46,218 nucleotides of DNA from an uncultured Chloroflexota bacterium (GTDB taxonomy: Bacteria > Chloroflexota > Chloroflexia > Thermomicrobiales > CFX8), in contig CALMXF010000407.1 in NCBI GenBank assembly GCA_937870985.1, positions 1-46,218 of the forward strand. Reading direction: 5' to 3'. This document shows positions 6,683 to 24,842 of this stretch, in pieces. Each line of letters begins with the position of its first letter. The stretch's first letter is position 1. The notes below the pieces were generated by a model. The model saw only the letters and a program-made list of their open reading frames with translations. It did not search any database and was not told where the DNA came from. Both the position numbers and the translations under genes were made by a program.

Positions 6683-6817
6683 GTGCTCTTCCGTTTGCTT
6701 CGCTCAGGGTTGGTTGTTCAGTCGCCAGGGTGGTCCGAATGTCGCAGCGTTCATTGTATCGTCCCGCCTCGCGAACCACCCTCAAGCGCGGATCGCACCT
6801 GAACGTGAAAGGTCTGG

Positions 6818-6847
6818 TTGACACGAACATCTGTTCGTCATTATACT
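6818..6847 (+). promoter_or_regulatory. lexA promoter with embedded SOS box
   Basis: TTGACA (6818-6823) and TATACT (6842-6847) are separated by 18 bp. The spacer holds the perfect palindrome-type SOS box CGAACATCTGTTCG (6824-6837), which fits the Bacillus/actinobacterial LexA consensus CGAACNNNNGTTCG. LexA bound here would block RNA polymerase, so lexA is very likely autoregulated. The predicted transcript start, near 6854, gives a leader of about 57 nt. Confidence 0.9.
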
Positions 6848-6910
6848 GACGTCGTCGAGTGGCTGCTGCGATCGATAGCGTACCGCTGGATCATGTGGGA
6901 GAGAAGAGAT

Positions 6911-7552: not shown

Positions 7553-7600
7553 CCTCGCGTCTTCAATCGGATCAGCTTCGCTCTGGCGGTCGACGCATCC

Positions 7601-8746: not shown

Positions 8747-9138
8747 ACACGCCCGGTTCTCTACGCCGGCTAGCGGTGATGGGCGTTCTTGCCTGGATGA
8801 TCCTGATTTTCGCACTCTCATCGAGGAGCACACTCCCGACGACCGGAGGGCTGCCGGCCAACGTCGCCGCTATCATTGGCCATCTTGTTGCCTATGCGGT
8901 GCTGGCCGCGCTGATCCGCCTCGCAATACGCGGATTCGAGCCCGACTTCCGCGCTGATTTGATCTCGGTTACTCTCGCGGCGCTGTATGGGCTGAGCGAC
9001 GAATTCCACCAGTCCTTCGTCCCGGGCCGCGACGCCAGCGTCTTCGACGTCCTCGTCGACATCGCGGGGGCATCGCTCGGCGTAACAATCACAAATCTGA
9101 TGGGAAGCTTCTGGCGTCGACCAGGCAGGGAATCATGA
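8743..9138 (+). CDS. VanZ-like membrane protein
   Basis: The 131-residue protein has four predicted membrane helices and the typical VanZ features: an early FALSSR segment, a GH-L-AY helix (IIGHLVAYAVLAALIR), the LSDEFHQSFVPGRDASVFDVLVDIAGASLG block and no catalytic domain. VanZ-family proteins are associated with teicoplanin resistance in enterococci but are widespread in ordinary genomes, where their role is unclear. The conserved Asp-Glu-x-x-Gln and Gly-Arg-x-x-x-x-x-D residues are all present. It overlaps both neighbours by 4 bp, which suggests co-translation with two glycosyltransferases and a role in surface polymer handling (inference). Confidence 0.85.
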   Translation: MNTPGSLRRLAVMGVLAWMILIFALSSRSTLPTTGGLPANVAAIIGHLVAYAVLAALIRLAIRGFEPDFRADLISVTLAALYGLSDEFHQSFVPGRDASVFDVLVDIAGASLGVTITNLMGSFWRRPGRES

Positions 9139-10571
9139 TGGCGCAGGACCGGAGAGCACTGATCCTCGTCACAGCGATGGCCGCCATCTTTTTCGCCGCG
9201 TTCGTCCCACGCTTCGTGGCACGACTCGATCCGCTGACCGGTGATGAGCCGTTCTATGTGATGACCGCAATCAGCATCGTTCGCGATCGTGACCTCGACG
9301 AGTCGAACAACTACGCTCAACGTGATTTCGATGAGTTCTATCCCGCCGACCCGCTTCCGAGTGACTGGCAGGGTTGGGGCGGATTTCCGCGCACGCTACC
9401 GCCGCACCCAGCGCAGTCGGTGCTTCCCGGGCTTCACACGAAGCACGGGCTTGGGCTTTCATTTCTGATCGCTGTGCCATACGCGTTCGCCGGGCGTATT
9501 GGCGCGATGGCCGTCATTATCATCGCCGCAGCGTTGCTAACGGGGCAGATGTATCTCCTCGCTCGGGAGGCTGGCAGCGGCATTCGCCTGGCGGGGGCGA
9601 TCGCGTTAGCGCTCGCGGTTAGCCTGCCGATTGCGCCATACGCGTTGCTGATCTTCCCAGAGATTCCGGCCGCGCTCATCCTCGTCTATGCCGTCCGACG
9701 CCTGAGTCGAGATGAGAATCGAGTCTGGCAGTGGTTGCTAACGGGGGTTGCGGTTGGATTCCTGCCCTGGCTCCATCAACGCTTCGCCCCGACTGCCGCG
9801 GTTCTCGGCATCGTGTTGTTCTGGCGATGGTGGCGGTCGCGCAAGCTCGCGGCGGGCATCGCCTGTCTGCTTGTCGGTATCGGGGCGGCAACCCTGATCT
9901 ATTACAATTGGTGGCTGTACCACTCACCGGTGCAGAATGTGGCCGACCATGCCGGGTTTTCCTCAGCAACGGGGACCGTCAACGGGCTGTTCGGACTGCT
10001 GCTCGACGCGCAGTGGGGGCTGATCATCAATGCGCCGATATACATCGTTGCGATCGCCGGGCTTCCGCGCTGGCTGAAGATCGATCGGAATCGCGGGCTG
10101 TTGGCGATAGCGGCGATCACGCCGTATCTGCTGGAGGTCGGCGCATATCGGGTCTGGTGGGGAGAGTGGGGCCCGGCGGCCCGCTACCTCGTCCCAGTCG
10201 CGCCACTTGCCGCGGCGACGCTAGGCGCGGTGCTTGCGACCAGCGGATGGTCGGTGCGCGCCATTGTTGGCGGAACATGGCTCATTGGGGCGCTATTGAC
10301 GCTCGTTGGCTTCGCCGATCCCCAGCGCTTCTATCACCAACCGGACGGTGCGAACAATCTGGTGACTCGGGTTGGAGAGATCGTCGGACTCGACGTTGCC
10401 GGCCATCTTGTGTCGTTTCAGCCGTACGCAATCTCGCCTGTCCTGGACAGGGTCATGGCGGGGCTCATTCTTCTTCTGGCCTTCTGGATCACGACAGCGA
10501 TCATCTATATTCCACCGAAGATCGGCCAGCCGAGTGATCCAGCCCACGATGCCGCTACACTAGAGTCGTGA
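9135..10571 (+). CDS. Multi-pass GT-C type glycosyltransferase (PMT/ArnT-like)
   Basis: The 478-residue integral membrane protein has about eleven hydrophobic helices. After the first helix it carries an acidic extracytoplasmic loop with LTGDEPFYVM, the Asp-Glu type signature of GT-C enzymes that use lipid-linked sugar donors (mannosyl- and arabinosyltransferases, PMT/ArnT superfamily). The early loop also contains HPAQSVLPGLHTKHG. Donor and acceptor are unknown. Start is ATG 9135 or 9138, overlapping the VanZ-like gene. Together with the two genes upstream it forms a small operon for decorating or anchoring a surface glycan (inference from context). Confidence 0.75.
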   Translation: MMAQDRRALILVTAMAAIFFAAFVPRFVARLDPLTGDEPFYVMTAISIVRDRDLDESNNYAQRDFDEFYPADPLPSDWQGWGGFPRTLPPHPAQSVLPGLHTKHGLGLSFLIAVPYAFAGRIGAMAVIIIAAALLTGQMYLLAREAGSGIRLAGAIALALAVSLPIAPYALLIFPEIPAALILVYAVRRLSRDENRVWQWLLTGVAVGFLPWLHQRFAPTAAVLGIVLFWRWWRSRKLAAGIACLLVGIGAATLIYYNWWLYHSPVQNVADHAGFSSATGTVNGLFGLLLDAQWGLIINAPIYIVAIAGLPRWLKIDRNRGLLAIAAITPYLLEVGAYRVWWGEWGPAARYLVPVAPLAAATLGAVLATSGWSVRAIVGGTWLIGALLTLVGFADPQRFYHQPDGANNLVTRVGEIVGLDVAGHLVSFQPYAISPVLDRVMAGLILLLAFWITTAIIYIPPKIGQPSDPAHDAATLES

Positions 10572-10605
10572 CGAGGAGCGTGAACGACGAGAAGGTAGAT
10601 GGTCG

Positions 10606-11166
10606 ATGTTTGAGCTACTAACCGGGCTCGGGCTAGCGATGCCGGCCGGCTTGAATGCATACATTCCGATTCTCGCGATCGCGCTGGCCGACCGATATAC
10701 CGGACTGATTCAACTCGCCGCGCCCTATAATGTCATCGCATCCCCATGGGCAATTGCGATCATTTCGGTGCTCCTTGGGATCGAGATCATTGCCGACAAA
10801 ATCCCGATCGTCGACCACATCAATGATCTGTTTCAGTCGTTCATCAGGCCGGCTGCCGGAGCGTTGCTCGTCATGGCCAGCACCGACGCCGTCCACAGGA
10901 TCAACCCGATCCTGGCGATGATCCTCGGCCTCTTCGTTGCGGGCGGCGTGCACATCACCAAGTCAACATTCCGGCCGATCGTGACCGCCACTACCGGAGG
11001 AGTCGGGAACCCGATAGTCAGCGCAGCCGAGGATGGCACGGCAATCTGCCTGAGCGTGCTCGCGCTGGTTGCGCCGATTCTCATCGTTCTCGTGATCGTC
11101 GCCGTCGCCGGCTTCGCGTTCGTGATGATTCGACGCCGATATGCACGACGTGCTTCGCTTATCTGA
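10606..11166 (+). CDS. DUF4126 membrane protein
   Basis: The 186-residue protein has about four to five membrane helices and begins LLTGLGLAMPAGLNAYIPILAI, the diagnostic glycine-rich first block of DUF4126. The later motifs (D-PIVDHIND, RPAAGALL and a GG-VH-TKSTFRP segment) also fit. Function is unknown for the family; helical repeats with small residues suggest a carrier or channel, but this is not established. It lies 34 bp after the GT-C gene on the same strand and could be transcribed with it. Its final segment is positively charged (RRRYARR), consistent with a cytoplasmic C-terminus. Confidence 0.75.
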   Translation: MFELLTGLGLAMPAGLNAYIPILAIALADRYTGLIQLAAPYNVIASPWAIAIISVLLGIEIIADKIPIVDHINDLFQSFIRPAAGALLVMASTDAVHRINPILAMILGLFVAGGVHITKSTFRPIVTATTGGVGNPIVSAAEDGTAICLSVLALVAPILIVLVIVAVAGFAFVMIRRRYARRASLI

Positions 11167-11177
11167 AGCAGACAGAC

Positions 11178-11214
11178 TTGCGTCGTACCGACTCATGGTT
11201 TATCATAACCATGA
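11178..11214 (+). promoter_or_regulatory. dnaJ-like gene promoter with palindrome over the -10
   Basis: TTGCGT (11178-11183) and TATCAT (11201-11206) have 17 bp spacing. The -10 is the loop of a perfect inverted repeat, TCATGGTT (11193-11200) and AACCATGA (11207-11214). This geometry is typical of a repressor operator. It is not the CIRCE element of HrcA (TTAGCACTC-N9-GAGTGCTAA). The regulator is unknown. Confidence 0.6.
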
Positions 11215-11256
11215 CGTAGGTGTGAGTGAGTGTTCAGCCGAATCGGGGCACCTCAA

Positions 11257-12291
11257 ATGCAATTTCAGGACTACTATTCTCTCCTCGGTATCGGGCGCAA
11301 GGCAAGCGACGCCGAGATCAAGAAGGCATATCGGGAGAAGGCGCGCCGACTTCATCCGGACGTAAACAAGGCCCCAGACGCTGAAGAGAAGTTCAAGGCG
11401 GTCAATGAGGCCTATCAGGTGCTATCCGACGCCGACAAGCGCGCGCGCTACGATCAGTTCGGCGCCGACTGGGAACGCTACCAGGCAACAAGCGACTCGA
11501 ACGCCGGCCCGGGTGATTTCAGTCAGTGGGTCTCGCAGCAGTCCGGCGGCCCCAGCGGCGCCCGCGTTGAATACCGAACCAATGGCGGTGAGGGGTTTTC
11601 CGACTTCTTCGAGACGCTATTCGGCAGTCAGAAGGGCCGGCAGCGCCGACGCGCCCGGACGCCTCGGCGCGGAGAAGACCATGAATACACTGTCGAGGTG
11701 CCGCTCCGAGACGCGTTCACCGGCACATCCCGCACCTTCGAGATCCAGATACCCGAGCCATGTCTGGAATGCAACGGCACTGGCGCCACCCACGGCCAGA
11801 TCTGCCTCATCTGCGAAGGAACTGGAACTGTCGCACGCCGGTCACGCATCGAGGTCACGATTCCGGCCGGTATTCGGGAAGGTCAGCGGGTCCGCGTGGC
11901 CGGCAAGGGTTCGCCAGGGGGCGACGGTGGACCCGCAGGTGATGTGTACTTGCGCGTCAAGGTCGTTTCGGACGAGCAGTTCTCGCTCGATGGGAACGAT
12001 CTTCGAGCCGATGTCGATATCCCGTTGTATACCGCGGTTCTCGGCGGCGAGGCCATCGTCAGGACGTTGACCGGCAAGGTTGCGCTAACGATTCCTTCCC
12101 AGTCGAAGAATGGGAAGATGTTCCGTCTACGCGGACAAGGCTGGCCGACGGCGATCGGGTCCAGTGAGCGAGGCGATCTCTTCGCCCGCATACGCGTCGT
12201 TCTTCCAGCAAACCTCGGCGAGGAGGAGCTATCGTTGTTCGAAAAGCTCCGTGACATGCGCGAGCCGGAGAAGACTGCGCCAGTCGCGTGA
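11257..12291 (+). CDS. DnaJ/CbpA-like co-chaperone with a half zinc finger
   Basis: This Hsp40 co-chaperone should stimulate DnaK ATPase and deliver substrates. The 344-residue product has a J domain (about 5-68) with the essential H33-P34-D35 tripeptide, a Gly/Ser-rich linker with DFSQW and [10 protein letters not shown], then two beta-barrel client domains. Canonical DnaJ has four CxxCxGxG repeats. Here there are only two: C169/C172 (CLECNGTG) and C183/C186 (CLICEGTG). CbpA has none, so this is an intermediate form able to bind one zinc. ATG 11257 is chosen since the J domain begins directly after it; the longer reading from 11230 is less likely. It is transcribed from the palindrome-overlapped promoter just upstream. 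Confidence 0.88.
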
Positions 12292-12317
12292 TATCATACG
12301 CGGTTGGCGGGCGAACG

Positions 12318-12340
12318 AAATCAGCCCGCGTCTTAGCGCG
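12318..12340 (+). other. Small hairpin in the purA leader
   Basis: GCGGGC and GCCCGC are 6-bp complementary arms separated by about 11 nt, within the 79-bp gap between the dnaJ-like gene and purA. No U-tract follows. It could be a weak terminator or part of a leader. Coordinates are approximate. Confidence 0.25.
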
Positions 12341-12370
12341 CCTGCGTCGATTCTCTGAGGGGCGGGATAT

Positions 12371-13654
12371 ATGCCGGTAGCAATCGTGCTCGGTGGCCAA
12401 TGGGGTGACGAAGGCAAGGGCAAGATCATCGATGCGCTGGCGTCCAGCGTAGATGTTGTGGTTCGCGCCAACGGCAGCGCGAACGCGGGACATACCGTCG
12501 TCACCGACCGGGGAGTATTCAAGTTCCACCTGATTCCCTCAGGCATCCTTCATCCCGATTGCACCTGTGTCATCGGCGCCGGAGTTGCGCTCGACCCGGC
12601 GATTTTGCTGCAGGAACTTGACGACATGCACGCCCGTGGAGTTGACACCTCGCACCTTCGCGTCTCATCCCGTTGCCACCTGATCATGCCCTATCACCCG
12701 ATTCAGGACCGGCTCGAAGAATCCAGCCGCGGCGCAAATACCATCGGAACCACTCAGCGGGGCAACGGACCGTGTTACGCGGATAAGGCCGCGCGGCGCG
12801 GGATCCGTGCCGCCGATATTCTCGATCCCGAGTATCTTGTCCGCCGGCTTGAGCCTGTATTGGCCGAGAAGAATGCGCTCCTTGGCGCGCTCTATGGACA
12901 CCCGCCGTTCGACCTGGAAGAGATGGCCGAACAATTCGCCGCGTACGGCGAGCGGTTGGCGCCATATATCGGTGATGTCGAGGTCGAGATCCAGGATGCG
13001 ATCGACGCTGGCCGCAACGTCATGATCGAGGGCGCTCAGGCGGCGATGCTAGACATCGACTACGGCACCTATCCATACGTTACGTCATCGTCCCCGACAG
13101 CGGCGGGGGTCTGCCAGGGGGCGGGAGTCGCGCCCACTCAGATCGACCGCGTGATCGGCGTCTACAAGGCGTACTCCACGCGGGTCGGCGCTGGCGCGTT
13201 TCCGACCGAGCTCTTCGACGACACCGGCGATATGCTGCGCTCGCGCGGCGTCGAGTTCGGCACAACCACCGGGCGACCACGCCGGACGGGTTGGTTCGAC
13301 GCGGTCCAGGCGCGCTATACGGCACGTCTGAACGGCATCACCGAGATCGCGCTCACGAAGCTCGATGTCCTCGACGGCGTCGACGCGGTTCATGTCTGCG
13401 TCGGGTACGAACTCAACGGGGAGCGTCATGATTCCCCCCCTGCCCGGATCGAAGACTACGAGCAGGTGAAGCCGATCTATGAGGAGTTGGCCGGCTGGGA
13501 AGACGGGGGCAGCGACACAGCGGCGTCTGCCGGCCTGCCCGAGGCGGCCCAGATATATCTGCGGCGGATCGCGGCGCTCGTTGGCGTCCCGATCACCTTC
13601 GTCGGCACCGGCCCACATCGCGACCAGCTCATTCACGCGACCGCGGCGGACTAG
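12371..13654 (+). CDS. purA: Adenylosuccinate synthetase
   Basis: PurA condenses IMP with aspartate using GTP to form adenylosuccinate, the first committed step of AMP synthesis. The 427-residue protein has the normal length. It begins with the P-loop-like GGQWGDEGKGKI (the Asp of GDEGKG is the catalytic base), then NAGHTVV with the catalytic His, the IGTTQRGNGPCYADKAAR block, EGAQAAMLDIDYGTYPYVTSS, and TGRPRRTGW near the GTP/aspartate site. ATG 12371 is preceded by GAGGGGCGGG. It is convergent with gpsA, with only 12 bp between stop codons. Confidence 0.97.
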   Translation: MPVAIVLGGQWGDEGKGKIIDALASSVDVVVRANGSANAGHTVVTDRGVFKFHLIPSGILHPDCTCVIGAGVALDPAILLQELDDMHARGVDTSHLRVSSRCHLIMPYHPIQDRLEESSRGANTIGTTQRGNGPCYADKAARRGIRAADILDPEYLVRRLEPVLAEKNALLGALYGHPPFDLEEMAEQFAAYGERLAPYIGDVEVEIQDAIDAGRNVMIEGAQAAMLDIDYGTYPYVTSSSPTAAGVCQGAGVAPTQIDRVIGVYKAYSTRVGAGAFPTELFDDTGDMLRSRGVEFGTTTGRPRRTGWFDAVQARYTARLNGITEIALTKLDVLDGVDAVHVCVGYELNGERHDSPPARIEDYEQVKPIYEELAGWEDGGSDTAASAGLPEAAQIYLRRIAALVGVPITFVGTGPHRDQLIHATAAD

Positions 13655-13666
13655 GCCCGGTCGGTA

Positions 13667-14677
13667 TCAGTCCAGCTCAGCCCGTTGGTTACGCGTCAGC
13701 AGCACATGGATCGCGTCATCGACCGAGACCTGACCGTCCAGCACCGCGACGATCGCGTCGGCAATTGGTGTCTCTACTCCATATCGCCGACCTAGCTCCG
13801 CCATCGCATACGCGGTCGTCGCCCCCTCGACGACATGGCCGATCCGCTGGCGCGCGTCCTCCATGCTCAGCCCCTCGCTGAGCAGCTGACCGAACGTTCG
13901 GTTGCGGCTGAGCGGGCTCTCGCAGGTCGCAATCAGATCGCCAAGTCCGCTCAATCCGCCGAATGTGAGCGGATTCGCGCCCGCTGCGATGCCCAGCCGT
14001 GTTAGCTCTGCTAGCCCGCGGGTAATGAACGCAGCCTTTGCGTTTTGCCCCATCCGGAGGCCGTCCGACACGCCCGCGCCGAGCGCGATGACGTTCTTCA
14101 GCGCGCCGCCAATCTCGACGCCGATGACGTCCCGGCTCGTGTACACACGAAACCGCGCGGACGAAAGGAGCGATTGCACAGTCTCGGCGGTGAACAATGC
14201 CGCCGACGCAACAACCGCCGAGGCCGGCAGACCTCGCACGATCTCGCCAGAGAGATTCGGCCCGGATAAGATGGCGATTCTCTCAACGGGGATGCCGCCC
14301 ACGTCGGACAGCACTTCGCTGGATCGCGCGAGCGTGTCTCTCTCGAGCCCTTTGCTGCACGACACGACCAGTGTGTTGCCTGCGAGCACAGTCCGAAGCC
14401 GCTGGCTGATTTCACGGACGGCCTGTGTTGGGACGACCACGAACACCACATCCGCATCCTGCGCCGCCATGCGGATATCTGATGTCACGCCAATCGCGGG
14501 CGCGAGTGGCACTCCGGAGAGATACCGCACATTTTCGCCGGCGGCGCGAATGGCGTCAGCTTGTTCCTCGTCGCGCGTCACGAGCCGCACGCTCGCCCCG
14601 ACTGAGTCAAGATGGAGGGCGAGCGTCGTGCCCCACGCGCCAGCTCCGACTACCGCCACTGATGAGGGGTTTGACAT
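13667..14677 (-). CDS. gpsA: Glycerol-3-phosphate dehydrogenase [NAD(P)+]
   Basis: GpsA reduces dihydroxyacetone phosphate to sn-glycerol 3-phosphate, the backbone of phospholipids. The 336-residue product has the N-terminal Rossmann motif [10 protein letters not shown] (11-20), the VVPTQAVRE segment, [16 protein letters not shown], and the catalytic Lys region in [17 protein letters not shown], followed by [15 protein letters not shown] 14677 follows a strong GGAAGGAA site; the longer reading from 14896 would run into the divergent fabZ gene. It diverges from fabZ across 66 bp, so two lipid-precursor genes probably share a promoter region. Confidence 0.96.
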
Positions 14678-14743
14678 TTCCTTCCAGCGCTTCCTAGACT
14701 CAACCGCGACCACGGTGCAGATCGAACGAAAGGACACAGACAG

Positions 14744-15184
14744 GTGCTGGACACACGCGAGATTCAGGCGATTATCCCCCACCGCTACCCCTTTCTTCTT
14801 GTCGACCGTATTCTCGAGGTCGAATATGGCGTCCGCGCAGTGGGTTTGAAGAATGTCACCGCGAACGAGCCCTTCTTTCAGGGGCATTTTCCCCACTATC
14901 CGGTGATGCCAGGGGTCTTGATCATCGAAGCCCTTGCGCAGGTCGGAGCGGTGGCACTACTCGGCATGGACGAGCATCGCGGCAAGATGGCGTTCTTCGC
15001 GGGTATCGACGGCGTCCGGTTCAAGCGACAGGTGAAGCCCGGCGACGCTCTCCGGCTGGAGGTGGTGATGGGCCGAATGCGTCGTGGGATCGGAACTGGT
15101 TCGGCCGTCGCGACGGTCGATGGTGAGCTCGCGGTCAAAGCGGAGCTGATGTTCGCCGTCGCGGATCTCGACCAGCCCGCATGA
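14744..15184 (+). CDS. fabZ: 3-hydroxyacyl-[ACP] dehydratase FabZ
   Basis: FabZ dehydrates beta-hydroxyacyl-ACP in fatty acid elongation. The 146-residue hot-dog protein has the characteristic [13 protein letters not shown] start, the catalytic His48 in [13 protein letters not shown] and Glu62 in the following helix (IIEALAQ), and [15 protein letters not shown]. The start codon is GTG 14744 after GAAAGGA. It is the first gene of a long operon: its stop overlaps the ATG of the next glycosyltransferase by 4 bp. In diderm bacteria fabZ often sits with lipid A genes; here it sits with GT9 enzymes but no lpx gene is visible. Confidence 0.95.
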
Positions 15185-16191
15185 CCCAGGGGGCAGCCTC
15201 GCCGGCCCGCATCGGTGTTGTGAAGCCGTGCTGTATCGGCGACTGCGTGATGGCGTTGCCAACGCTCGACTCACTCGCCGCGGCGTTCCCGAACGCGGAT
15301 CTGCAGGTGTTCGTCGGTCCGCACTCGCAGCCGATATTCGAAGGGCGCGAACCGTGGACAGTCCGAAGCATCGGCGACCGCATAACCGCGAAGGCCGCTG
15401 GGCGGCAGGCGCTATCGATCCGGGCCGAAGACTTCGATCTGGTTGTCGTGTTGGAACGTTCGCGAATATTGACGTCTGCCTTCGTCGCCCTGGCGGGATG
15501 TCCTGTGGCGGCCGTCACTCGCGTCATGCCCGAAGTTCGTCATGAAAGCGTGGCCTATCTCGACGCGTTGCGCGGATTGGCGATCGAGCCGCTTGTCACG
15601 CAACCTGTTCTCCGGCCGTCTCGACAGGAGGCGGAGATCGCCGATCAGCTGTGTTCTTGCTGGCCTCGCACGGTATTGTTCCATCCAGGTGGCGCAGAGA
15701 ATCCCGGAGCGACCATGCCCGACAAACGGTGGCCGGCGAGCCACTACGTCGCGTTGGCCCGCCTGATCGAGTCCCATGGCTATACCGTGATCTTCTCTGG
15801 CGGCGCGAGCGATCGCGAGCTCGTCAGCCGGATCGTCCAAGACGCCGGATTGCCGAGCGACCGCTCTCTCGCCGGCCAGGTCAGTCTCGGGGGCGCCATC
15901 GCCGTCGCAGCCAGATCGAGCCTGTACGTCGGCGGTGACACTGGCATGAGCCATATCGCCGCGGCGGCTGGGACGCCCGTCGTCGCGATCTTCGGCCCGA
16001 CCAATCCCCGCCGGTACCGACCGATCGGCGATCGAGTGACCGTCGTGGCGCCCGCGGCTTCGTGGACACTCCCCGATGTTGATCTTCGGCGGGCAAGCAG
16101 CGCGACAGTGCCATGCACGAGCGACGTCACGGTTGACCAGGTCTCCGCAGCCTGCCTGGCCATCCTTCCGCCGGGAGGCTCGTCGGAATGA
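15181..16191 (+). CDS. Glycosyltransferase family 9 (heptosyltransferase-like), first copy
   Basis: The 336-residue GT-B protein matches family GT9, whose best-known members are ADP-heptose:LPS heptosyltransferases (WaaC/WaaF). Visible signatures are the N-terminal [15 protein letters not shown] (the phospho-sugar loop of the family), the [16 protein letters not shown] block and the C-terminal donor motif [26 protein letters not shown]. No heptose-synthesis gene is visible in the window, so the donor sugar is unknown. It overlaps fabZ and the next GT9 by 4 bp each. The protein has no membrane segments and should act at the inner face of the membrane. Confidence 0.88.
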
Positions 16192-17318
16192 CGACTTTGG
16201 CACACATGATTCGCGACGCGGGGCTTGTCGTTGCAGCCGGAGTATCGCCACGCGCGACGAGCGCTGGCGACACCGTGCTTGTCATGCAGCCGGATCATCT
16301 TGGAGACATCCTCCTGTCGCAGCCGGCGGTCCGCTTGCTCCGGCAGCAATTGCCGGATGTTCGCCTTGTCGCCGTCGTCGGCAGCTGGTCGAGCGACATT
16401 GCACGTATGGCGTGGCCAGTCGACGATATCGTGACAGTCGAATTTCCCGGGTTTACGCGCGCCGCCACCCGTGATCCGAGCGCGCCGTACCGGAAGCTGA
16501 AGTCGGCGGCCAGATCACTGGCTCCCCTGAATGCGGGAATCGCGATCGTCCTGCGCCCGGACGCATGGTGGGCGGCCTGGTTGGGGTCGCTCGTGGCCTC
16601 CGAGGTCATTACGTCGGATGATCCTCGCGCGAGCCGGTTTGCAACTCGTCAGGCACTCCTTGTCGACGACGAGCACGCAGCTCTGCGGGCGGCCAGGATC
16701 GTCGCTGAATGGGTCGGAGGTGAACTGCCTTCGCCGGTGACAGCCCCGCTCTCGATACCACCATGCAAGTCGGCTCGTGACGGCACGACGTCCCTCTTGC
16801 GCGCGGCCGGCATCGACAGCAGTTATGTCGTCATCCATCCGGGTTCCGGCGCCGCTGTCAAGCTCTGGCCGGAGTCTCGCTGGCGGCAGGTGATCGATGC
16901 CTTGCGGAATCAGGGGGTCTCGGTCGTCGTGACCGGCAGCGACGGGGAACGTGATCTCTGCGATCGCATCACCTCGGGCGTCGATGCGGTAAGCCTCGCC
17001 GGCCAGACGAACATCGCGGGACTCCTGGAAATCATGCGCGGAGCAACCCTCGCCATCGGCGCCGACAGCGGGCCGATGCACCTGGCCGTTGCGGCCGGGA
17101 CGCCAACGATCCACCTCTTTGGCCCAAGCGACCCGTGCCGCTACGGCCCATGGGGTGACCCTGTACGTCACAGAATCATCTCGGCTGGCTGGCGATGCCC
17201 GCGGTGCGGCGATCTCAGCCCCGGTCGGCCAGCCGGCTGCGGTTGCATGTTGGCAATCACACCCGAGGCTGTTATCGCCACGATCGACTCGCTGTTGAGC
17301 ACCCATGCGACGGGTTGA
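16188..17318 (+). CDS. Glycosyltransferase family 9, second copy, with Cys cluster
   Basis: The 376-residue GT9-family protein shows the start motif VLVMQPDHLGDILLSQPAVR, the IHPGSGAAVKLWPESRW block and the donor-site motif GADSGPMHLAVAAGTPTIHLFGPSDPCRYGP. Near the C-terminus it has CPRCGD followed by AGCGCM, a four-Cys cluster that could bind a metal; similar Cys patterns occur in the third GT9 here but not the first. Substrate is unknown. It overlaps the preceding GT9 by 4 bp and the next GT4 gene by 14 bp, which indicates strong translational coupling. Confidence 0.88.
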   Translation: MTTLAHMIRDAGLVVAAGVSPRATSAGDTVLVMQPDHLGDILLSQPAVRLLRQQLPDVRLVAVVGSWSSDIARMAWPVDDIVTVEFPGFTRAATRDPSAPYRKLKSAARSLAPLNAGIAIVLRPDAWWAAWLGSLVASEVITSDDPRASRFATRQALLVDDEHAALRAARIVAEWVGGELPSPVTAPLSIPPCKSARDGTTSLLRAAGIDSSYVVIHPGSGAAVKLWPESRWRQVIDALRNQGVSVVVTGSDGERDLCDRITSGVDAVSLAGQTNIAGLLEIMRGATLAIGADSGPMHLAVAAGTPTIHLFGPSDPCRYGPWGDPVRHRIISAGWRCPRCGDLSPGRPAGCGCMLAITPEAVIATIDSLLSTHATG

Positions 17319-18405
17319 CCTCGCGGTTGATGCCAGCCGTTCTGACTCGGCCGAGCGGACCGGAACCGAGTGGTACTCGTTTGAGCTTCTGCGCGCGATG
17401 GCCGCCATCGACGAGCGGCCGGCAATGACGTACTACCATCGCGAGTTCCGGCCGGACTGGCCCTCCGGCTCGCATGTGGATCACGAGCTCATCCGGATGC
17501 CGCGGCTCTGGACTCATGCCGGCCTCTCGCTGCGGATGCTTCGCGACCGGCCGGCGGCGCTCTTTGTTCCATCCCACGTCATCCCGGTCATTCACCCGCG
17601 AGCCTCGATCGCGACGATCCACGACCTCGGTTACCTGCATGAGCCTGAGGCGCACGACCAGGCATCCCGGCTGATGCTCGACCGCACGACTCGCTGGAAC
17701 GGTCGTGTTGCCAGCCGTCTCATCGCAGTCTCCGCCACGACACGTGACGATCTGATTCGTCACTATGGGGTGTGGCCCGGCAAGATTGCGGTCGTCCACT
17801 CCGGCATCGACCACCAGCGATTTCGCCGCCACGATCCATCGGCCACGCTTTCGCACGCCGGAATCACGCGTCCATATCTACTGTTCCTCAGCACAGTTCA
17901 GCCGCGGAAGAACGTCGTCCGTCTTGTCGAAGCATTCGAGCAGCTCGACAATCATGACCTGCATCTCGTTATCGGCGGACGATCGGGCTGGATGAGTGAC
18001 CCGATCGAGCGTCGTCTGAAACAGAGCCCCAGGAGCGACCGCATCATCCGGCTCGGCTATGTTCCCGACGAACTCGTGCCGGCCCTGTATGCGGGCGCGG
18101 CGGCGTTCGTCCATCCGGCGCTCTACGAGGGGTTCGGGCTTGGGATCCTCGAGGCGATGGCCTCCGGCGCGCCAGTCGTAACCAGCAACATCGCCAGCAT
18201 GCCGGAGGTATCGGGCGACGCTGCGATTCTCGTCGACCCGCATGATGTTCGCTCCATCCGCGACGGCATCCTCGCAGCGCTTGATCCTGCGAACCGAGTC
18301 GACCTGGTCGAGCGGGGCGCGCGTCGTGCCGCCGGCTTCACCTGGGAACGAACAGCCCAGCTGACGCTCGACGTGATCGCGGAGGCGCGACGTGGGCGCA
18401 ACTGA
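17305..18405 (+). CDS. Glycosyltransferase family 4
   Basis: The 366-residue GT-B enzyme begins VDLAVDASRSDSAERTGTEWYSF, a glycine/threonine-rich acceptor loop typical of mannosyltransferase-like GT4 proteins. It has IHDLGYLHEPE, ISA-type VSATTRDDLIRHYGV, a VHSGIDHQRF hinge and the donor block ALYEGFGLGILEAMASGAPVVTSN, containing the E-x7-E motif with both Glu residues, then SMPEVSGDAA. Sugar specificity is not readable. It overlaps the flanking GT9 genes by 14 bp on each side. Confidence 0.9.
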   Translation: MRRVDLAVDASRSDSAERTGTEWYSFELLRAMAAIDERPAMTYYHREFRPDWPSGSHVDHELIRMPRLWTHAGLSLRMLRDRPAALFVPSHVIPVIHPRASIATIHDLGYLHEPEAHDQASRLMLDRTTRWNGRVASRLIAVSATTRDDLIRHYGVWPGKIAVVHSGIDHQRFRRHDPSATLSHAGITRPYLLFLSTVQPRKNVVRLVEAFEQLDNHDLHLVIGGRSGWMSDPIERRLKQSPRSDRIIRLGYVPDELVPALYAGAAAFVHPALYEGFGLGILEAMASGAPVVTSNIASMPEVSGDAAILVDPHDVRSIRDGILAALDPANRVDLVERGARRAAGFTWERTAQLTLDVIAEARRGRN

Positions 18406-19486
18406 GCGGCGCATCCTCGTTGTCAAGCTCGCTGACCTCGGGGACCTCCTCATCTGCGAGCCGGCCTTGCGCTCGTTGCGCGCCGCCTACCCCGACGCGT
18501 CGATCGACGTCGTTGTGCCGCCGTCGTCCGCCGCGCTCCTGCCGTTACTTGGCCACGGTCTTCGGGCAGTCACGTTCCCAAAACAGCTGTTCGATCGGCC
18601 ACGCTCGTTGGCCCGTCCGGATCGACTGATGATGGGCGCTCGCTTTGGCTTGTCGCTTCGTCGCGCTGGCTATGACACCGTCGCGCTGCTCCATCACCTG
18701 ACCACCAACGCAGGGGCGGTCAAGTTCCGATGGCTCACACGGGCTACCGGCGCACCCGAAATAGTTGGTCTCGATAATGGGCGAGGGACATTCCTCACCA
18801 CGCGGGTCCAGGATCTCGGTTTCGGCGCGCGCCATGAGGTGGAGTACATGCTGGCCATCGCGAAGGCCGCCGGTGGAGTTGACGTCGATCCCGCCCCTCG
18901 GATTGATCAGTCGCTCCTGCCTCACGTTCCCGGCCTGCCGCGTGACTACGCAGTGATCTACCCAGCCACTGGTCCATACTCGCCCGCGCGCACCTGGGCA
19001 GCCGAGCGTTATGGCGCAATCGCGGCTGCGGTCGCGGCCCGTGGGATCACCCCGGTAATCGTCGGCGCGAAGGACGCGCTGGAGCCGTCAGCAATCATCC
19101 GACGCATTGCGCCAGACGCGCTGGATCTCGTCGCATCGACGAATCTCCCTGGGCTCGCGGCAGTGCTCAAGGGGTCACGAGTGGTCATTGGCGCAGACTC
19201 CTTTGCGGGCCACCTGGCGGCTGCTCTCGATTGTCCCCGGGTAACGGTTTTCGGGCCATCGAACCGGGATGCGTGGAGGCCATGGGGTTCTCAGGACGTC
19301 GTCGAGGCAAGCCAGGTTGCGGCAACACGTGGGCTGGTCGTGTACCATGATCTTCCCTGTCAGCCATGCCTGTACACGGGCTTCCGGCTCGGCCGGCCCG
19401 CTGGCTGTCCAACACGGACCTGCATGGCACTGGTTACTGTGGAGGACGTCGTGCGCGCCATCGATCTCGTCATCGGGGGTTCCTGA
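18392..19486 (+). CDS. Glycosyltransferase family 9, third copy
   Basis: The 364-residue GT9-family protein has ILVVKLADLGDLLICEPALRSL at the start, YPATGPYSPARTWAAERY in the middle and GADSFAGHLAAALDCPRVTVFGPSN near the end. The C-terminal segment HDLPCQPCLYTG...GCPTRTCM carries four to five cysteines in the pattern seen in many WaaF-like proteins. The start is GTG 18392, inside the 3' end of the GT4 gene by 14 bp. Its TGA shares one base with the ATG of the following membrane-stress gene, so the glycan and stress halves of the operon are translationally joined. Confidence 0.87.
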   Translation: MGATERRILVVKLADLGDLLICEPALRSLRAAYPDASIDVVVPPSSAALLPLLGHGLRAVTFPKQLFDRPRSLARPDRLMMGARFGLSLRRAGYDTVALLHHLTTNAGAVKFRWLTRATGAPEIVGLDNGRGTFLTTRVQDLGFGARHEVEYMLAIAKAAGGVDVDPAPRIDQSLLPHVPGLPRDYAVIYPATGPYSPARTWAAERYGAIAAAVAARGITPVIVGAKDALEPSAIIRRIAPDALDLVASTNLPGLAAVLKGSRVVIGADSFAGHLAAALDCPRVTVFGPSNRDAWRPWGSQDVVEASQVAATRGLVVYHDLPCQPCLYTGFRLGRPAGCPTRTCMALVTVEDVVRAIDLVIGGS

Positions 19487-20016
19487 TGTTCCGGGGAGGC
19501 CGGACGATCGGGCTGCTGTTGATCCTCGGCGGCCTCGGTATCATGGCAATCTCCGCCGCATGGCTGGCCTCTGGCGTTGCCGACAAGAATTCCGGACTTC
19601 GGACATCGGGCGCGATTCTGGGCGGCGGGCTGCTCTTCGTTGCAATCATCTTGCCGATGCTGGCCGGCGGCACGTATGTATTCCTGAAAGGACGAAGCGA
19701 AGAGGCGCAGTTCGCAACCGGACAACGCCAGCGAAAGTTACTCGCGATCGTCGAGACTGCCGGACAGATCAGCATCGCCGATCTCGCGCTGCAAATCGGT
19801 GGAACACGAGACTCCGTCCGTGATGATCTGTACGACCTCGTGTCCAAGGGCCTCTTCTCTGGGTACGCAGACTGGAACCGAGGCATTTTGTACACTCGCG
19901 CCGCGTCGGATCTACGCGGTTCGAAGACGTGTCCCAACTGCGGAGGGCAGCTGGAGATCGCGGGCAAGGGCTTGATCCGCTGCCCGTATTGTGGAGCCGA
20001 GATCTTCCTGCCATGA
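19486..20016 (+). CDS. Membrane-anchored winged-helix / zinc-ribbon protein
   Basis: This 176-residue protein has two N-terminal membrane helices (about 7-30 and 43-68), a predicted helical winged-helix-like domain (about 75-125; KLLAIVETAGQISIADLALQIG, then SVRDDLYDLVSKGLF) and a C-terminal zinc ribbon with C149/C152 (CPNCGG) and C166/C169 (CPYCGA). I do not recognise a named family. The cytoplasmic wHTH plus zinc ribbon on a two-helix anchor suggests a sensor or adaptor for the adjacent PspA/SPFH genes rather than a soluble regulator (inference). ATG 19486 is the true start: it overlaps the GT9 stop by one base, and the longer frame from 19366 is a shadow of the GT9 gene. Confidence 0.7.
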   Translation: MFRGGRTIGLLLILGGLGIMAISAAWLASGVADKNSGLRTSGAILGGGLLFVAIILPMLAGGTYVFLKGRSEEAQFATGQRQRKLLAIVETAGQISIADLALQIGGTRDSVRDDLYDLVSKGLFSGYADWNRGILYTRAASDLRGSKTCPNCGGQLEIAGKGLIRCPYCGAEIFLP

Positions 20017-20046
20017 TGCGCAGTGTGAAGCGTAAGGAGGCCAGCG

Positions 20047-21039
20047 ATGTCCACGCGTGACAGGCTCGACCGGGCGCTCAACCGCGTCCCCGGTTATGCC
20101 GGCTATCGCGATAAGGAACGTCGTCGTGACAGTGACCGCGCCATTCGCGCCAAACTGGCAACCGATTACGGACAGCTCGCTGACCGGCTCGGCCGCTTGG
20201 GTAACCGCCTGGCAGAGAATCGCAAAATCGACGCTGTCGGGATCGTCGATAAGCCACTGACACTGCTTCGATCGTTCATCGACCGCGTCCGGGTCGCAAC
20301 CTACGGCTATGCGCCCGCGTTCGCCAATGATGTTGTCGATGCGGCTGTCCTCGACCAGATCGCCGCATTTGACTCGGCGCTTGCAGACCAGATACCGACA
20401 CTGGAGGAGCAGATCGCCTCGCTGGAGAGTGCCGACCCGTCCGCTGGCGAGTTCCGCGCCGCCGCCGACCAGATCGGCGCGACAGTGCAACAACTGTCCG
20501 ATCGGTTCGATAGACGGGCCGAGGTCATCCATGCTGGCCGGCCATTGCCCGAAAAGGACATGCTCGCACTGCTGGGGCCGGCCGCGCCGGATCAGCCGTC
20601 AGAGCTTTGGACGCTGCGGACCGGCGACGCGGTCTCGTACAACGGGCAGGACTACTCGGTAATCGGACACGTCACCGCCGGTATGTCGAGCGGCTCCCGT
20701 CGCGCCTATCAGTTGCGCGGCGGTGATGGCCGGCAGTGGCTTGAGGTCGGTGACCGGCATGACGACCCACTCGCATGGCTGACGGAGGCGGAGCTGCAGT
20801 TGGTTGGTCGACCATCGTCGGTCAAGCTCCGAGAGACAGACTACGCATTCATGCACGAAACGCAGGCGCGCGGCGAAGTGGAAGGGCGCCAGGGGTCGGA
20901 CGAGCAATCTCTCCGTTACCTGGAATACGGCGCAGGCACCCGCGTCTTGCATATCTACCAGTGGGGCACCCAGTATCTGGCGCTCGAAGGTGTCGCGATC
21001 GACCTTCGCGACATCGAGCTATACCCGAGCCACCGATAG
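20047..21039 (+). CDS. DUF4178-domain protein
   Basis: The 330-residue protein has a charged helical N-terminal half (about 1-170, probable coiled coil) and a C-terminal beta-rich domain of DUF4178 type, recognisable by LRTGDAVSYNGQDYSVIGHVT, the YQLRGGDGRQWLEVG strand pair and a final YLEYG...VLHIYQWGTQYLALEGVAI. DUF4178 proteins frequently occur near PspA or polyamine-synthesis-like genes; their activity is unknown. A near-perfect ribosome site (AAGGAGG) precedes ATG 20047. It lies 30 bp after the winged-helix/zinc-ribbon gene and 48 bp before pspA, clearly within the operon. Confidence 0.72.
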   Translation: MSTRDRLDRALNRVPGYAGYRDKERRRDSDRAIRAKLATDYGQLADRLGRLGNRLAENRKIDAVGIVDKPLTLLRSFIDRVRVATYGYAPAFANDVVDAAVLDQIAAFDSALADQIPTLEEQIASLESADPSAGEFRAAADQIGATVQQLSDRFDRRAEVIHAGRPLPEKDMLALLGPAAPDQPSELWTLRTGDAVSYNGQDYSVIGHVTAGMSSGSRRAYQLRGGDGRQWLEVGDRHDDPLAWLTEAELQLVGRPSSVKLRETDYAFMHETQARGEVEGRQGSDEQSLRYLEYGAGTRVLHIYQWGTQYLALEGVAIDLRDIELYPSHR

Positions 21040-21087
21040 CTCGGCAAACCGGGACGAACGTCCCATCAGTGGAGGAGAATCTCACAG

Positions 21088-21801
21088 ATGGCCATCCTCG
21101 ATCGCATGTCCCGCCTTATTCGCGCGAACATCAACGACCTGCTCGACCGCTCGGAGGATCCGGAGAAGATGCTCAACGAGCTTCTGCGCGAGATGGACAG
21201 CAGCATTGTCGAAGCCCGCAGCCAGGTCGCGAACACCATCGCGCAGGAGAAGGAGCTCGAAGCTGACCTTCAACAATCGCAACACGACGCCCGCGAATGG
21301 GAGAGGCGCGCGGAGCTCGCCGTCGGCGCCGCGAAGGATGATCTCGCTCGGGAAGCGCTACGGCGTAAGCGGGACGCCGAGAGCATCGCAACCGTCTATG
21401 CTCAGCAACTGACTTCGCAGCAGGAGATGGTCGAGAAGCTGAAGTCGCAACTCACCATGTTGCAGGCAAAGCGCGACGAGGCTGTGTCGAAGCGCGACGT
21501 CCTTGTTGCTCGTCACCGCGCAACCGTGGCTCAGCGCCAGATCACCGAGAGTCTCTCAACCCTTCCTGGGCTCGACTCGTCGAGCGAGCTCGACCGGATG
21601 GAGAAACGGATCCGGATGGAAGAGTCGAAGACCGCCGCGCTGGGAGAGCTCCAGGGTGATGATGTCGAGTACCAGTTCCAACAGCTCGACCGGGACGACG
21701 ATATCGAAAGCGAGCTCGCTGCTCTCAAGTCGCGCAAAGCGGGCAACGACACGAAAAGCCTGAATCCAGGAGCGCCAACCGAGTCTGGATCGTCGAGCTA
21801 G
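21088..21801 (+). CDS. pspA: PspA/IM30 family membrane-stress protein
   Basis: PspA is an ESCRT-III-like coiled-coil protein that binds and stabilises stressed inner membranes. The 237-residue product has the family start MAILDRMSRLIRANINDLLDRSEDPEK and the long helical hairpin (about 25-190) with M-LNELLREMDSS and VAN-IAQEKELE. The C-terminal tail after residue 190 is short and polar. Length and start are standard. The GGAGGAG site upstream of ATG 21088 is strong. It sits between DUF4178 and SPFH genes, the same neighbourhood as Bacillus pspA-ydjGHI, which supports a membrane-integrity module. Confidence 0.93.
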   Translation: MAILDRMSRLIRANINDLLDRSEDPEKMLNELLREMDSSIVEARSQVANTIAQEKELEADLQQSQHDAREWERRAELAVGAAKDDLAREALRRKRDAESIATVYAQQLTSQQEMVEKLKSQLTMLQAKRDEAVSKRDVLVARHRATVAQRQITESLSTLPGLDSSSELDRMEKRIRMEESKTAALGELQGDDVEYQFQQLDRDDDIESELAALKSRKAGNDTKSLNPGAPTESGSSS

Positions 21802-21843
21802 CCGGCAGTTTCGCCCGGTCCGCTGGTGGCAGGAGGAAGTCAA

Positions 21844-22905
21844 TTGGCCATCCTGGATCTTATCGAGTATATCGACTCACGCCCCGACGAGATCGTCCAT
21901 CGCATCCCGGAATACGGATCGGGCGAGTTTCGGCTTGGCTCACAATGCGTCGTCCGGGAGTCGCAGCAGACTGTGTTCGTCCGGGATGGGAAGGCGCTGG
22001 ATATTCTGCCCCCGGGGCGGCATACCCTCACGACAGCGAACATCCCACTGCTGACCGGCATCATCGGGCTGCCATTCGGATCAAAGAGCCCGTTCCGCGC
22101 CGAGGTCTATTACGTGATGATGCGGGAGTTCACCGGCCTGAAGTGGGGCACGACGCAGCCAGTCGTGTTCCGCGACAGTGAGTTCGGGATGATCCGCATC
22201 CGCGCGTTCGGCACCTACTCAATGCAGGTCAAGGATCCGCAGGTCTTCGTGAATCAGATCGTCGGCACGCAGTCGACGTATTCGACGAGCGACATCGAGA
22301 ACTACCTGCGCACGATCATCATCAACGAGTTCAACGACATGATGGGCGAGACGCTGACGACCCTGCTCGATGTTCAGGCGAAGACAGTCGATCTCGCGAC
22401 TGCCGCACTCCACAGCCTGACGGATAACTTCGAGAGGATCGGGCTTGAGATACGCTCGTTTCAGATCGGCGCGATCACGCCACCCGATGAGGTACAGACC
22501 GCAATCGATCAGCGCAGCGCAATGGGCGCGATCGGCAACATGCAGACCTACACCCAGTACCAGGCCGCGCAGGCGATCGGTGGTCTCGGTCAGGGAGGCG
22601 AGGGAGGACAGGGGAGCAACCTCGCGGAGGGAGCCGGCCTTGGCGCCGGGATCGGGATCGGAGCGGCTATGGCTGATGCGCTTCGTCAGTCGATGGCCGG
22701 AGGGCAGCAACCTGCCCAGCAAGCGCAGGCGGGCGGGCAACGCTTCTGTCCGAATTGCGGCAATCCCGTCCCCGCTGGCGCGAAATTCTGCCCAAGCTGC
22801 GGCCATAACGTTTCGGCAACAGCCGCCTGCCCGAAGTGCGCGACCGAAAACCCCACGGGCTCGAAGTTCTGCCAGAACTGCGGGACCGCGCTGGGCACGA
22901 CGTAA
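21844..22905 (+). CDS. SPFH-domain protein with C-terminal double zinc ribbons (YdjI-like)
   Basis: The 353-residue protein has an SPFH/band-7-like domain (about 20-230; SQCVVRESQQTVFVRDGKALDIL-PGRHTLTT, then FGMIRIRAFGTYSMQVKDPQVF), a glycine-rich linker (about 245-290) and two C-terminal zinc-ribbon units (CPNCGN...CPSCGH and CPKCATE...CQNCGT), eight Cys in all. Bacillus YdjI, which recruits PspA to membranes, has a related layout. The best start is TTG 21844, because AGGAGG (21831-21836) is spaced 7 bp from it; GTG 21826 is an alternative. It is the last gene of the operon and is followed by a strong inverted repeat. Confidence 0.85.
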   Translation: MAILDLIEYIDSRPDEIVHRIPEYGSGEFRLGSQCVVRESQQTVFVRDGKALDILPPGRHTLTTANIPLLTGIIGLPFGSKSPFRAEVYYVMMREFTGLKWGTTQPVVFRDSEFGMIRIRAFGTYSMQVKDPQVFVNQIVGTQSTYSTSDIENYLRTIIINEFNDMMGETLTTLLDVQAKTVDLATAALHSLTDNFERIGLEIRSFQIGAITPPDEVQTAIDQRSAMGAIGNMQTYTQYQAAQAIGGLGQGGEGGQGSNLAEGAGLGAGIGIGAAMADALRQSMAGGQQPAQQAQAGGQRFCPNCGNPVPAGAKFCPSCGHNVSATAACPKCATENPTGSKFCQNCGTALGTT

Positions 22906-22927: not shown

Positions 22928-22989
22928 GTCAAACGGGTCGCCACTCATGTGCAACCCGTTTGACCGTGGCCGCGTGTTCGGCCTAGAAT
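22928..22989 (+). promoter_or_regulatory. ino1 promoter with long inverted repeat over the -35
   Basis: TTGACC (22960-22965) and TAGAAT (22984-22989) have 18 bp spacing and precede ino1 by about 100 bp. An 11-bp perfect inverted repeat, GTCAAACGGGT (22928-22938) and ACCCGTTTGAC (22954-22964), with a 15-nt centre, runs into the -35. It may be an operator, or the terminator of the upstream SPFH gene, but no U-tract follows the stem. Confidence 0.55.
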
Positions 22990-23092: not shown

Positions 23093-24226
23093 GTGGCAGA
23101 CAGGAAGATCCGGGTAGCGATCATCGGCGTCGGCAACTGCGCCTCGTCGCTGGTGCAGGGCGTTCAGTACTATGAGAATGCGAACCCGAATGAGTTCGTG
23201 CCAGGGCTGATGCATGTCGAACTCGGGGGATATCACATCCGCGATATCGAGTTCTCTGCTGCGTTCGATGTCGACGCGACCAAGGTCGGCAAGGACCTGA
23301 GCGAGGCGATCTTCTCAGGACCGAACAACACCTACAAGTTCGCGGATGTGCCTCACCTGGGTGTCACTGTTCACCGTGGGATGACTCACGATGGCCTGGG
23401 CAAGTATCTCTCGCAGATCATTACCAAAGCGCCCGGCCCGACGGCAGACATCGTTCGCATCCTCAAGGAGACCGAGACCGACGTCGTCATCAACTACCTG
23501 CCGGTTGGCTCCGAGATGGCGACGAAGTGGTATGTCGAGCAGTCACTGGACGCCGGTTGCGCGTTCATCAACTGCATCCCGGTATTCATTGCGCGAGAAG
23601 AGTACTGGCAAAAGCGCTTTGAGGAGCGTGGACTGCCGATCATCGGCGACGACATCAAGTCCCAGGTTGGCGCGACGATCACCCACCGTGTCCTCACCCG
23701 GTTGTTTGCCGACCGAGGCGTGCGCATCGATCGAACCTACCAGCTCAACTTCGGCGGCAATACCGACTTCATGAACATGCTCGAGCGTGAACGGCTGGAG
23801 TCAAAGAAGATCTCGAAGACGAACGCCGTCACATCACAGATGGATTACGAGCTGCCGGCCGAAAATGTCCACGTCGGCCCGAGCGACTATGTGCCATGGC
23901 TCGAGGATCGCAAGTGGTGCCATATCCGGATGGAAGGCACAACGTTCGGCGATGTGCCACTGAATCTTGAGCTGAAGCTGGAAGTCTGGGATTCGCCAAA
24001 CTCGGCCGGCGTCGTCATCGACGCGGTGCGCTGCGCGAAGTTGGCGCTCGATAACAACATCTCAGGCTCACTGCTGGCGCCATCGTCGTACTTCATGAAG
24101 TCGCCGCCTGTCCAGTACCACGATGATATTGCCCACCAGAAGGTCGAGGAATTCATCGCGCAAACCGCCATCGGGGCTGGCGCACGCCGTGCGGCCTCCG
24201 TGAGCGAGACAGATACGGAATCCTGA
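23093..24226 (+). CDS. ino1: Inositol-1-phosphate synthase
   Basis: Ino1 isomerises glucose 6-phosphate to myo-inositol 1-phosphate using bound NAD, the first step to inositol lipids and inositol-based solutes or thiols. The 377-residue product has the short actinobacterial/archaeal form. Visible blocks are the NAD loop [53 protein letters not shown] and the active-site region [28 protein letters not shown] 23093 follows GGAAGAG; the longer reading from 23027 lies in the leader. It starts a new transcription unit with the palindrome-linked promoter. In Chloroflexota inositol phospholipids are plausible, but which product is made here is unknown. Confidence 0.95.
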
Positions 24227-24251: not shown

Positions 24252-24842
24252 ATGTCGACGCTGCGTAAGGTGGCGCGTCGCTGGTTCAACGCCTCCGTCG
24301 ATGATTCACTCCTGCTCAACCTGTCCTATGTCCTGCATGAGCGTTCGGACTCCGCAGCCGTTCGTGCGCTCGCCGCGGGCTGCCGGTCACACGCTGCGTG
24401 GTTGAACCAGAGCTCGACGCTGCCGATTGCTACCGTCGAGGGCGCGATCGACACCGCGATCGACATCTGGCTCACTGCAACGATTGGGCTCCACCGCGAC
24501 CTACCGGACGCGCTGCAGGGCGCCTACGCGCAGAACGCTGAAATCCTCCTGATCGACGAGCCGTCGGCCTCAATGACCACCACGTCATTCTTCCGTGCGG
24601 ATGCAGCGATTTCACTGCCCCCCGTCGCCGGCGCGACGATTGGCGTCGCCGGCCTGGTTGCTCGACCGGGCCGCACCGACGCGCACCTCGTCATTGCCGG
24701 CCCGTTTCAATGGCCGAACCAGCAGCGGGCAGCAATCCGGGCGCTGGAACGATTGATCCAGCAACACGTCGACCAGTGGATCCCACCTCATGCGCTATGG
24801 CAGGCGCCAGCGGAGAAGCTACTTTCGGGCGAGGTCGCCTGA
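24252..24842 (+). CDS. Hypothetical protein downstream of ino1
   Basis: I do not recognise this 196-residue protein. It is soluble, with no signal or membrane segment, is alanine-rich and looks mostly helical at both ends, with a possible beta core (TTSFFRADAAISLPPVAGATIGVAGLVARPG...HLVIAGPFQWP). The final part (RAAIRALERLIQQHVDQWIPP) is an amphipathic helix. ATG 24252 has GGAGG upstream and lies 25 bp after ino1, so it is probably co-transcribed with it. Its 3' end overlaps the convergent XPB-like helicase gene by 24 bp. Codon usage looks like its neighbours, so it is likely a real gene. Confidence 0.65.
   Translation: MSTLRKVARRWFNASVDDSLLLNLSYVLHERSDSAAVRALAAGCRSHAAWLNQSSTLPIATVEGAIDTAIDIWLTATIGLHRDLPDALQGAYAQNAEILLIDEPSASMTTTSFFRADAAISLPPVAGATIGVAGLVARPGRTDAHLVIAGPFQWPNQQRAAIRALERLIQQHVDQWIPPHALWQAPAEKLLSGEVA

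Follow-up and report, generated by a model that had tools for sequence, protein, structure and literature searches.

A predicted operon of a Thermomicrobiales bacterium joins a glycosyltransferase cassette and a PspA-SPFH module that occur separately in related genomes

The locus described here is from an uncultured Chloroflexota bacterium of the order Thermomicrobiales (assembly GCA_937870985.1), whose genome sequence is 89% complete and which belongs to a family that we will refer to as f1. In the stretch of DNA that was analysed (46,218 nucleotides of contig CALMXF010000407.1, hereafter the window), nine genes follow each other in one direction between positions 14744 and 22905, and their reading frames, order and coordinates match those given in an earlier note on this DNA. 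The nine proteins were assigned to families by means of Pfam and NCBIfam searches. The genes, the gene that follows them and the two best promoter-like sites of the region are as follows.

14671..14700, + strand: promoter-like site TTGACA-18-TAGACT 5' of fabZ (agrees with the consensus at 10 of 12 positions)
14744..15184, + strand: fabZ, 3-hydroxyacyl-ACP dehydratase (NF000582, 194 bits, cut-off 113)
15181..16191, + strand: GT9a, heptosyltransferase-like (PF01075; closest solved structure WaaF; GD, KRWP and DTGxxH kept)
16188..17318, + strand: GT9b, heptosyltransferase-like (PF01075; closest solved structure WaaC; D13, K192, D261 and H266 equivalents kept)
17305..18405, + strand: GT4 glycosyltransferase (family search)
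18392..19486, + strand: GT9c, heptosyltransferase-like (PF01075; K192 replaced by R; DSFxxH)
19486..20016, + strand: wH gene, a two-TM protein with a winged-helix (weak DDRGK1/COP9/PCI resemblance) and a C-terminal zinc ribbon (searches and structure prediction)
20047..21039, + strand: PGYxGY (LIMLP_15305-like) helical domain fused to a C-terminal beta-rich DUF4178 domain (DUF4178, 50 bits; model pLDDT 90)
21088..21801, + strand: PspA/IM30, ESCRT-III superfamily (PspA_IM30, PF04012, 155 bits)
21826..22905, + strand: SPFH protein (Band_7_1, 230 bits) with two C-terminal zinc ribbons, YdjI-like
22960..22989, + strand: promoter-like site TTGACC-18-TAGAAT between the SPFH gene and INO1 (sequence scan)
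23093..24226, + strand: INO1, myo-inositol-1-phosphate synthase, a neighbour (start picked by homology)

The three GT9 proteins match PF01075 at 87–116 bits, and the PspA encoded here is the only one found in the source genome. The DUF4178 gene is a fusion, the N-terminal half of which represents a separate, LIMLP_15305-like family. The INO1 gene, whose product we take from its family to be a myo-inositol-1-phosphate synthase, starts 187 bp 3' of the SPFH gene.

The tight spacing noted earlier was also confirmed, with overlaps of 4 bp (fabZ/GT9a and GT9a/GT9b) and 14 bp (GT9b/GT4 and GT4/GT9c), and with gaps after the wH gene of 30 bp (wH/DUF4178), 48 bp (DUF4178/PspA) and 24 bp (PspA/SPFH). 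The single shared base at 19486, which had been taken to tie the glycosyltransferase (GT) half to the membrane-stress (Psp) half, is likewise present, and an overlap at the GT9c/wH junction is kept in all five f1 genomes (−1, −1, −8, −4 and −8 bp) and is therefore not due to chance. Outside f1 the space 5' of the wH gene is usually 34–330 bp, and there is one more overlap, a junction of −4 bp between GT4 and wH in one genome (G006) of family f3. The total of promoter-like sites in the region does not exceed chance expectation (3 versus 1.8 ± 1.6), so that their positions alone are suggestive; the site ahead of fabZ overlaps the first codons of the divergent gpsA gene, and no such site was detected by the scan at the boundary between the two halves. 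Due to the conserved overlaps and the placement of promoter-like sites at the ends only, the nine genes are likely to form a single transcript in f1. The site at 22960 likely marks the beginning of a separate INO1 transcript, and INO1 is probably not part of the operon.

The earlier note had suggested that a lipid-linked glycan is made by the GT half and that the membrane load thus created is watched by the PspA module, and it had named conservation of gene order as a check. When the locus was compared in 61 genomes of the order Thermomicrobiales (families f1–f5), this coupling was not borne out: both halves in their entirety are found together in only 7 of the 61 genomes, which belong to f1 and f4 (in one of them, G002, the locus is split across two contigs), and elsewhere the halves occur apart in both directions, the outcome that had been expected to count against the proposal. 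In family f2, the genes fabZ-GT9a-GT9b-GT4-GT9c are present without the Psp block in 15 fetched loci (three partly cut by contig ends), usually preceded by purA and followed, where the contig runs on, by INO1 and gyrA; none of the 21 f2 genomes contains DUF4178, and the only PspA of this family is a divergent one located elsewhere. In f3, the Psp block directly follows fabZ with no GT gene in 16 genomes, while in 12 others (two with a contig ending before fabZ) GT4 stands between them as the sole GT; GT9 is missing genome-wide from 25 of 32 f3 genomes. The four genes of the Psp block were together wherever they were seen in this order, except in the f5 genome G008, where DUF4178, PspA and SPFH genes are present without fabZ or a wH gene at the locus. 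The surrounding stretch, mutS2-lexA-dnaJ-purA-gpsA-fabZ...gyrA, is conserved across f1–f4. The locus thus provides a clean test case in which adjoining halves of an operon are seen to be evolutionarily separable.

The GT half was noted earlier as unusual in that GT9 enzymes were found in a lineage not expected to make LPS. This holds, as LpxC was detected in none of the 61 Thermomicrobiales genomes and all four control genomes were matched. The accompanying statement that heptose genes are lacking is correct for the window but not for the closest relatives, which have an HldA-like kinase; in the incomplete source genome itself no strong match to a heptose gene or kinase was found. Based upon the published catalytic-residue criteria for GT9 heptosyltransferases (PMC3559599), GT9a and GT9b possess both the D(T/S)(G/A)XXH signature and the catalytic D, and in their alignment with E. 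coli WaaF and WaaC the catalytic D, the K of KxWP and D(T/S)GxxH are all kept. GT9c, which has R for K and DSFxxH, may use a donor different from that of the other GT9s. Strong HldA-like kinases are present in 29 of 35 GT9-bearing genomes versus 2 of 26 others (p = 2e-9), and within f3 in 5 of 7 genomes with GT9 versus 1 of 25 without (p = 6e-4), both p values making the evidence look stronger than it is, since the genomes are related. In genomes G001 and G018, genes for an HldC-like nucleotidyltransferase and a WecG/TagA-type transferase are situated close to that of this kinase, as is one that we read as MurJ-like; the HldA- and HldC-like genes of the relatives score below the curated cut-offs. 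Because of the catalytic residues, the co-occurrence of the kinase and the absence of LpxC, the GT9 donor is likely ADP-heptose-like, in a bacterium without lipid A. However, strong GmhA matches mostly accompany a further cluster of three GT9 genes and are missing in cassette-only genomes (e.g., G001, G004 and G009), which, together with the lack of a strong kinase in the source genome, means that the donor may not be a canonical heptose. The genome of T. roseum, an organism with diol lipids, was reported to contain four genes possibly related to LPS and no outer-membrane machinery (PMC2615216), and GT9 genes of the f2 type may be among these four. Sphaerobacter and Thermomicrobium are presumed to have the arrangement seen in f2. 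For acylmannosides in Thermomicrobia, the literature search gave no result.

The Psp half has a wider distribution. A scan of named genomes with a profile of the wH protein returned 80 loci, 36 of which are outside Thermomicrobiales (Anaerolineae, Caldilineales, Thermoflexales, Ardenticatenales and others) and carry a triad consisting of the wH/zinc-ribbon protein, a middle protein and the SPFH/zinc-ribbon protein. Neither PspA nor fabZ was present within the DNA fetched for these 36 loci, and this core has no GT cassette of the present type nearby. The middle protein matches the DUF4178 gene of the window over a short stretch only; in fully read loci it is about 175 aa long and is the counterpart of the N-terminal half of the protein encoded in the window, with no DUF4178 match and with a LIMLP_15305 match below the cut-off of that family. 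In the Thermomicrobiales version, the middle protein is fused to DUF4178 and PspA directly precedes SPFH. In the reading that we favour, DUF4178 (by fusion) and PspA were added to this triad in Thermomicrobiales. The triad defines a Chloroflexota-wide SPFH/winged-helix module, which may be the platform onto which PspA was recruited.

Structure prediction for the PGYxGY-DUF4178 protein gave N-terminal helices followed by a beta-rich C-terminal domain; for this protein, neither a fold search of the PDB with the model (best E 0.034) nor a sequence profile provided a convincing match. The model of the wH protein (pLDDT 78, pTM 0.51) contains two TM helices, the second of which runs into a long helix and the winged-helix. 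Its best fold matches are to winged-helices of the COP9 signalosome, the proteasome lid and UFL1/DDRGK1 (E 0.004–0.08, none below 0.001), and a sequence profile of the wH protein independently, if weakly, lists DDRGK1 (E 0.024–0.079). The weak DDRGK1/COP9-type matches by fold and profile are, taken together, no more than suggestive of a winged-helix that binds protein rather than DNA. A DNA-binding regulator was also considered and is possible, as the wH protein of one relative matches Sul12a/Sso10a at E 1e-6, a score below the curated cut-off.

In a tree based upon concatenated sequences, f1, f2 and f4 formed a clade (support 1.0) distinct from f3, but the order within this clade had a support of only 0.158, and gains and losses can therefore be polarised only in part. 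The GT4 sequences group largely by family in their own tree, consistent with vertical descent, and of the cassette genes GT4 has probably been at this site the longest. The simplest reading of these results would be that fabZ-GT4-Psp was the ancestral locus of the order, that GT9 genes were present from the ancestor of f1, f2 and f4 onwards (or else were lost in f3), and that GT4 was lost repeatedly in f3 and the Psp block in f2.

The explanation that we favour, and consider probable, is that the nine genes are transcribed together in f1 and yet comprise two functionally separate cassettes, one for a glycan and one for membrane repair of a kind resembling PspA-YdjGHI, both occupying a slot anchored by fabZ. 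The three GT9 enzymes and the single GT4 enzyme would extend a cell-envelope glycan or glycolipid in a stepwise manner, at least in part with an ADP-heptose-like donor. By analogy with B. subtilis, the wH/zinc-ribbon and PGYxGY-DUF4178 proteins would constitute a membrane platform on which the SPFH/zinc-ribbon protein docks and recruits PspA, which would then polymerise on the stressed membrane, the stress input likewise being modelled upon that system. Co-transcription would coordinate the output of envelope-building genes, and a specific signal between the halves is probably not needed.

A single dedicated system of the kind put forward in the earlier note, where PspA monitors or repairs the load imposed by a lipid-linked glycan, has in its favour the reading-frame overlaps conserved in five f1 genomes, the presence of both halves also in f4 and the antiquity of the fabZ-GT4-Psp order within Thermomicrobiales; some functional coupling is possible in view of this old adjacency and of the overlaps. 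However, the complete GT cassette is present in f2 without any Psp block, most f3 genomes have this block without GT9s, and the core triad outside the order lacks this cassette, which makes such a system quite improbable. At the other extreme, the arrangement could be pure synteny within a slowly rearranging chromosomal stretch, so that co-transcription would be meaningless. Although conservation of the whole stretch in f1–f4 is consistent with this, the tight overlaps in f1 and the GT4/wH junction of G006 suggest selected co-expression, and the Psp-block genes are nowhere seen split within the order apart from G008; we therefore regard it as improbable.

Two further readings concern what the halves may do. 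The GT cassette could glycosylate a phosphoinositol lipid or a diol lipid to whose synthesis the adjoining INO1 gene contributes. INO1 is the next gene after the cassette in most f2 loci and after the Psp block in several f1 loci; the diol lipids of T. roseum and its few LPS-related genes, with no outer membrane genes (PMC2615216), would agree with this. However, the association of INO1 with GT9 is weak (22 of 35 genomes with GT9 versus 6 of 26 without), G004 lacks INO1 although its cassette is complete, and a literature search yielded nothing for this idea, to which we assign a very low probability. It is also conceivable, but rather unlikely, that the two-TM DDRGK1-like wH/zinc-ribbon, PGYxGY and SPFH/zinc-ribbon proteins form an undescribed Chloroflexota platform module that is older than its association with PspA and that, coupled in Thermomicrobiales to PspA and to the synthesis of lipid and an LPS-free, heptose-type glycan, is a bacterial counterpart of remodelling by a winged-helix adaptor plus ESCRT-III.

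The GT half resembles the WaaC/WaaF enzymes of the LPS inner core in its GT9 family membership and in the D13/K192/D261/H266 equivalents of GT9a and GT9b. It differs from them in that the GT9s of this locus score below the curated equivalog cut-offs, GT9c diverges at K192 and in its signature, and LpxC is missing from the 61 genomes. Bacteria that lack lipid A may thus carry out GT9 glycosylation from an ADP-heptose-like donor. For the Psp half, a DUF4178 protein adjoining PspA is also known from the PspA-CesT/Tir-DUF4178-spermidine synthase operons (mSystems 2024, PMC11237479), but none of CesT/Tir, spermidine synthase and DUF350 is among the nine proteins and DUF4178 is here fused to PGYxGY. 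Neighbourhoods of SPFH-PspA and wH-PspA were noted in general in a study of ESCRT diversity (PMC10936438); the main text of this study and that of a survey of Psp systems (PMC9239133) do not mention Chloroflexota. The archaeal ESCRT loci of the former study similarly combine ESCRT-III-superfamily, winged-helix and SPFH/zinc-ribbon proteins in one locus, whereas no Vps4/AAA ATPase is encoded by the nine genes and the wH match is weak and is to DDRGK1/COP9, not to a demonstrated ESCRT-II protein. In the pspA-ydjGHI operon of B. subtilis, the SPFH protein YdjI, together with YdjG and YdjH, brings PspA to the membrane (PMC8581546, PMC9239133). Among known systems the Psp half is most similar to this operon. 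The two loci share PspA and an SPFH protein (Band_7_1) with C-terminal zinc ribbons within one operon, and in our B. subtilis control the YdjI-type protein matched the same Pfam family, Band_7_1, as the SPFH protein of the locus. A TM protein with a zinc ribbon is encoded here too and may be the counterpart of YdjG, but it carries a winged-helix domain; there is in addition a PGYxGY-DUF4178 protein, and many Chloroflexota modules have no PspA at the locus. As TPM/YdjH had no match among the nine proteins, the Psp half is not of the ydjGHI type, although by analogy it probably works like it.

The triad of the two-TM winged-helix/zinc-ribbon protein, the LIMLP_15305-like PGYxGY protein and the SPFH/zinc-ribbon protein is spread Chloroflexota-wide, and in the loci L094, L113, L118, and L126 it was observed with PspA absent. 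A DUF2207 protein lies upstream of it in L113, and similarly in L118, where a MoxR-type AAA ATPase is found downstream. Relatives of the winged-helix/zinc-ribbon protein were also present in L146 and L147, from records labelled Caldisericaceae/Caldisericota, where no SPFH neighbor of this protein was detectable; these may reflect transfer or mislabelled bins. In an f5 genome (L039; G008:C292), DUF4178-PspA-SPFH is present, the winged-helix gene and fabZ are both absent, and two long regulator-like ORFs lie upstream in their stead.

Genes flanking the operon in the window:
7601-8746 and 9135-10571, upstream, a further GT4 gene together with a multi-TM protein lacking annotation
24252-24842, a 196-aa protein

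Neither the multi-TM protein, possibly a GT-C type transferase, nor the 196-aa protein has a Pfam match; the latter follows INO1 (myo-inositol-1-phosphate synthase) in several f1 and f2 genomes.

Some relatives carry an additional cluster comprised of GmhA, a bifunctional HldE-like protein, three GT9 and two GT4 proteins:
L164 (G018:C1:36000-53000), about 4300-12700, second GT9 cluster

Its HldE-like protein consists of PfkB and cytidylyltransferase-like parts, and the genomes bearing this cluster lack LpxC. The cluster appears to be a canonical locus for an ADP-heptose glycan, with no LPS.
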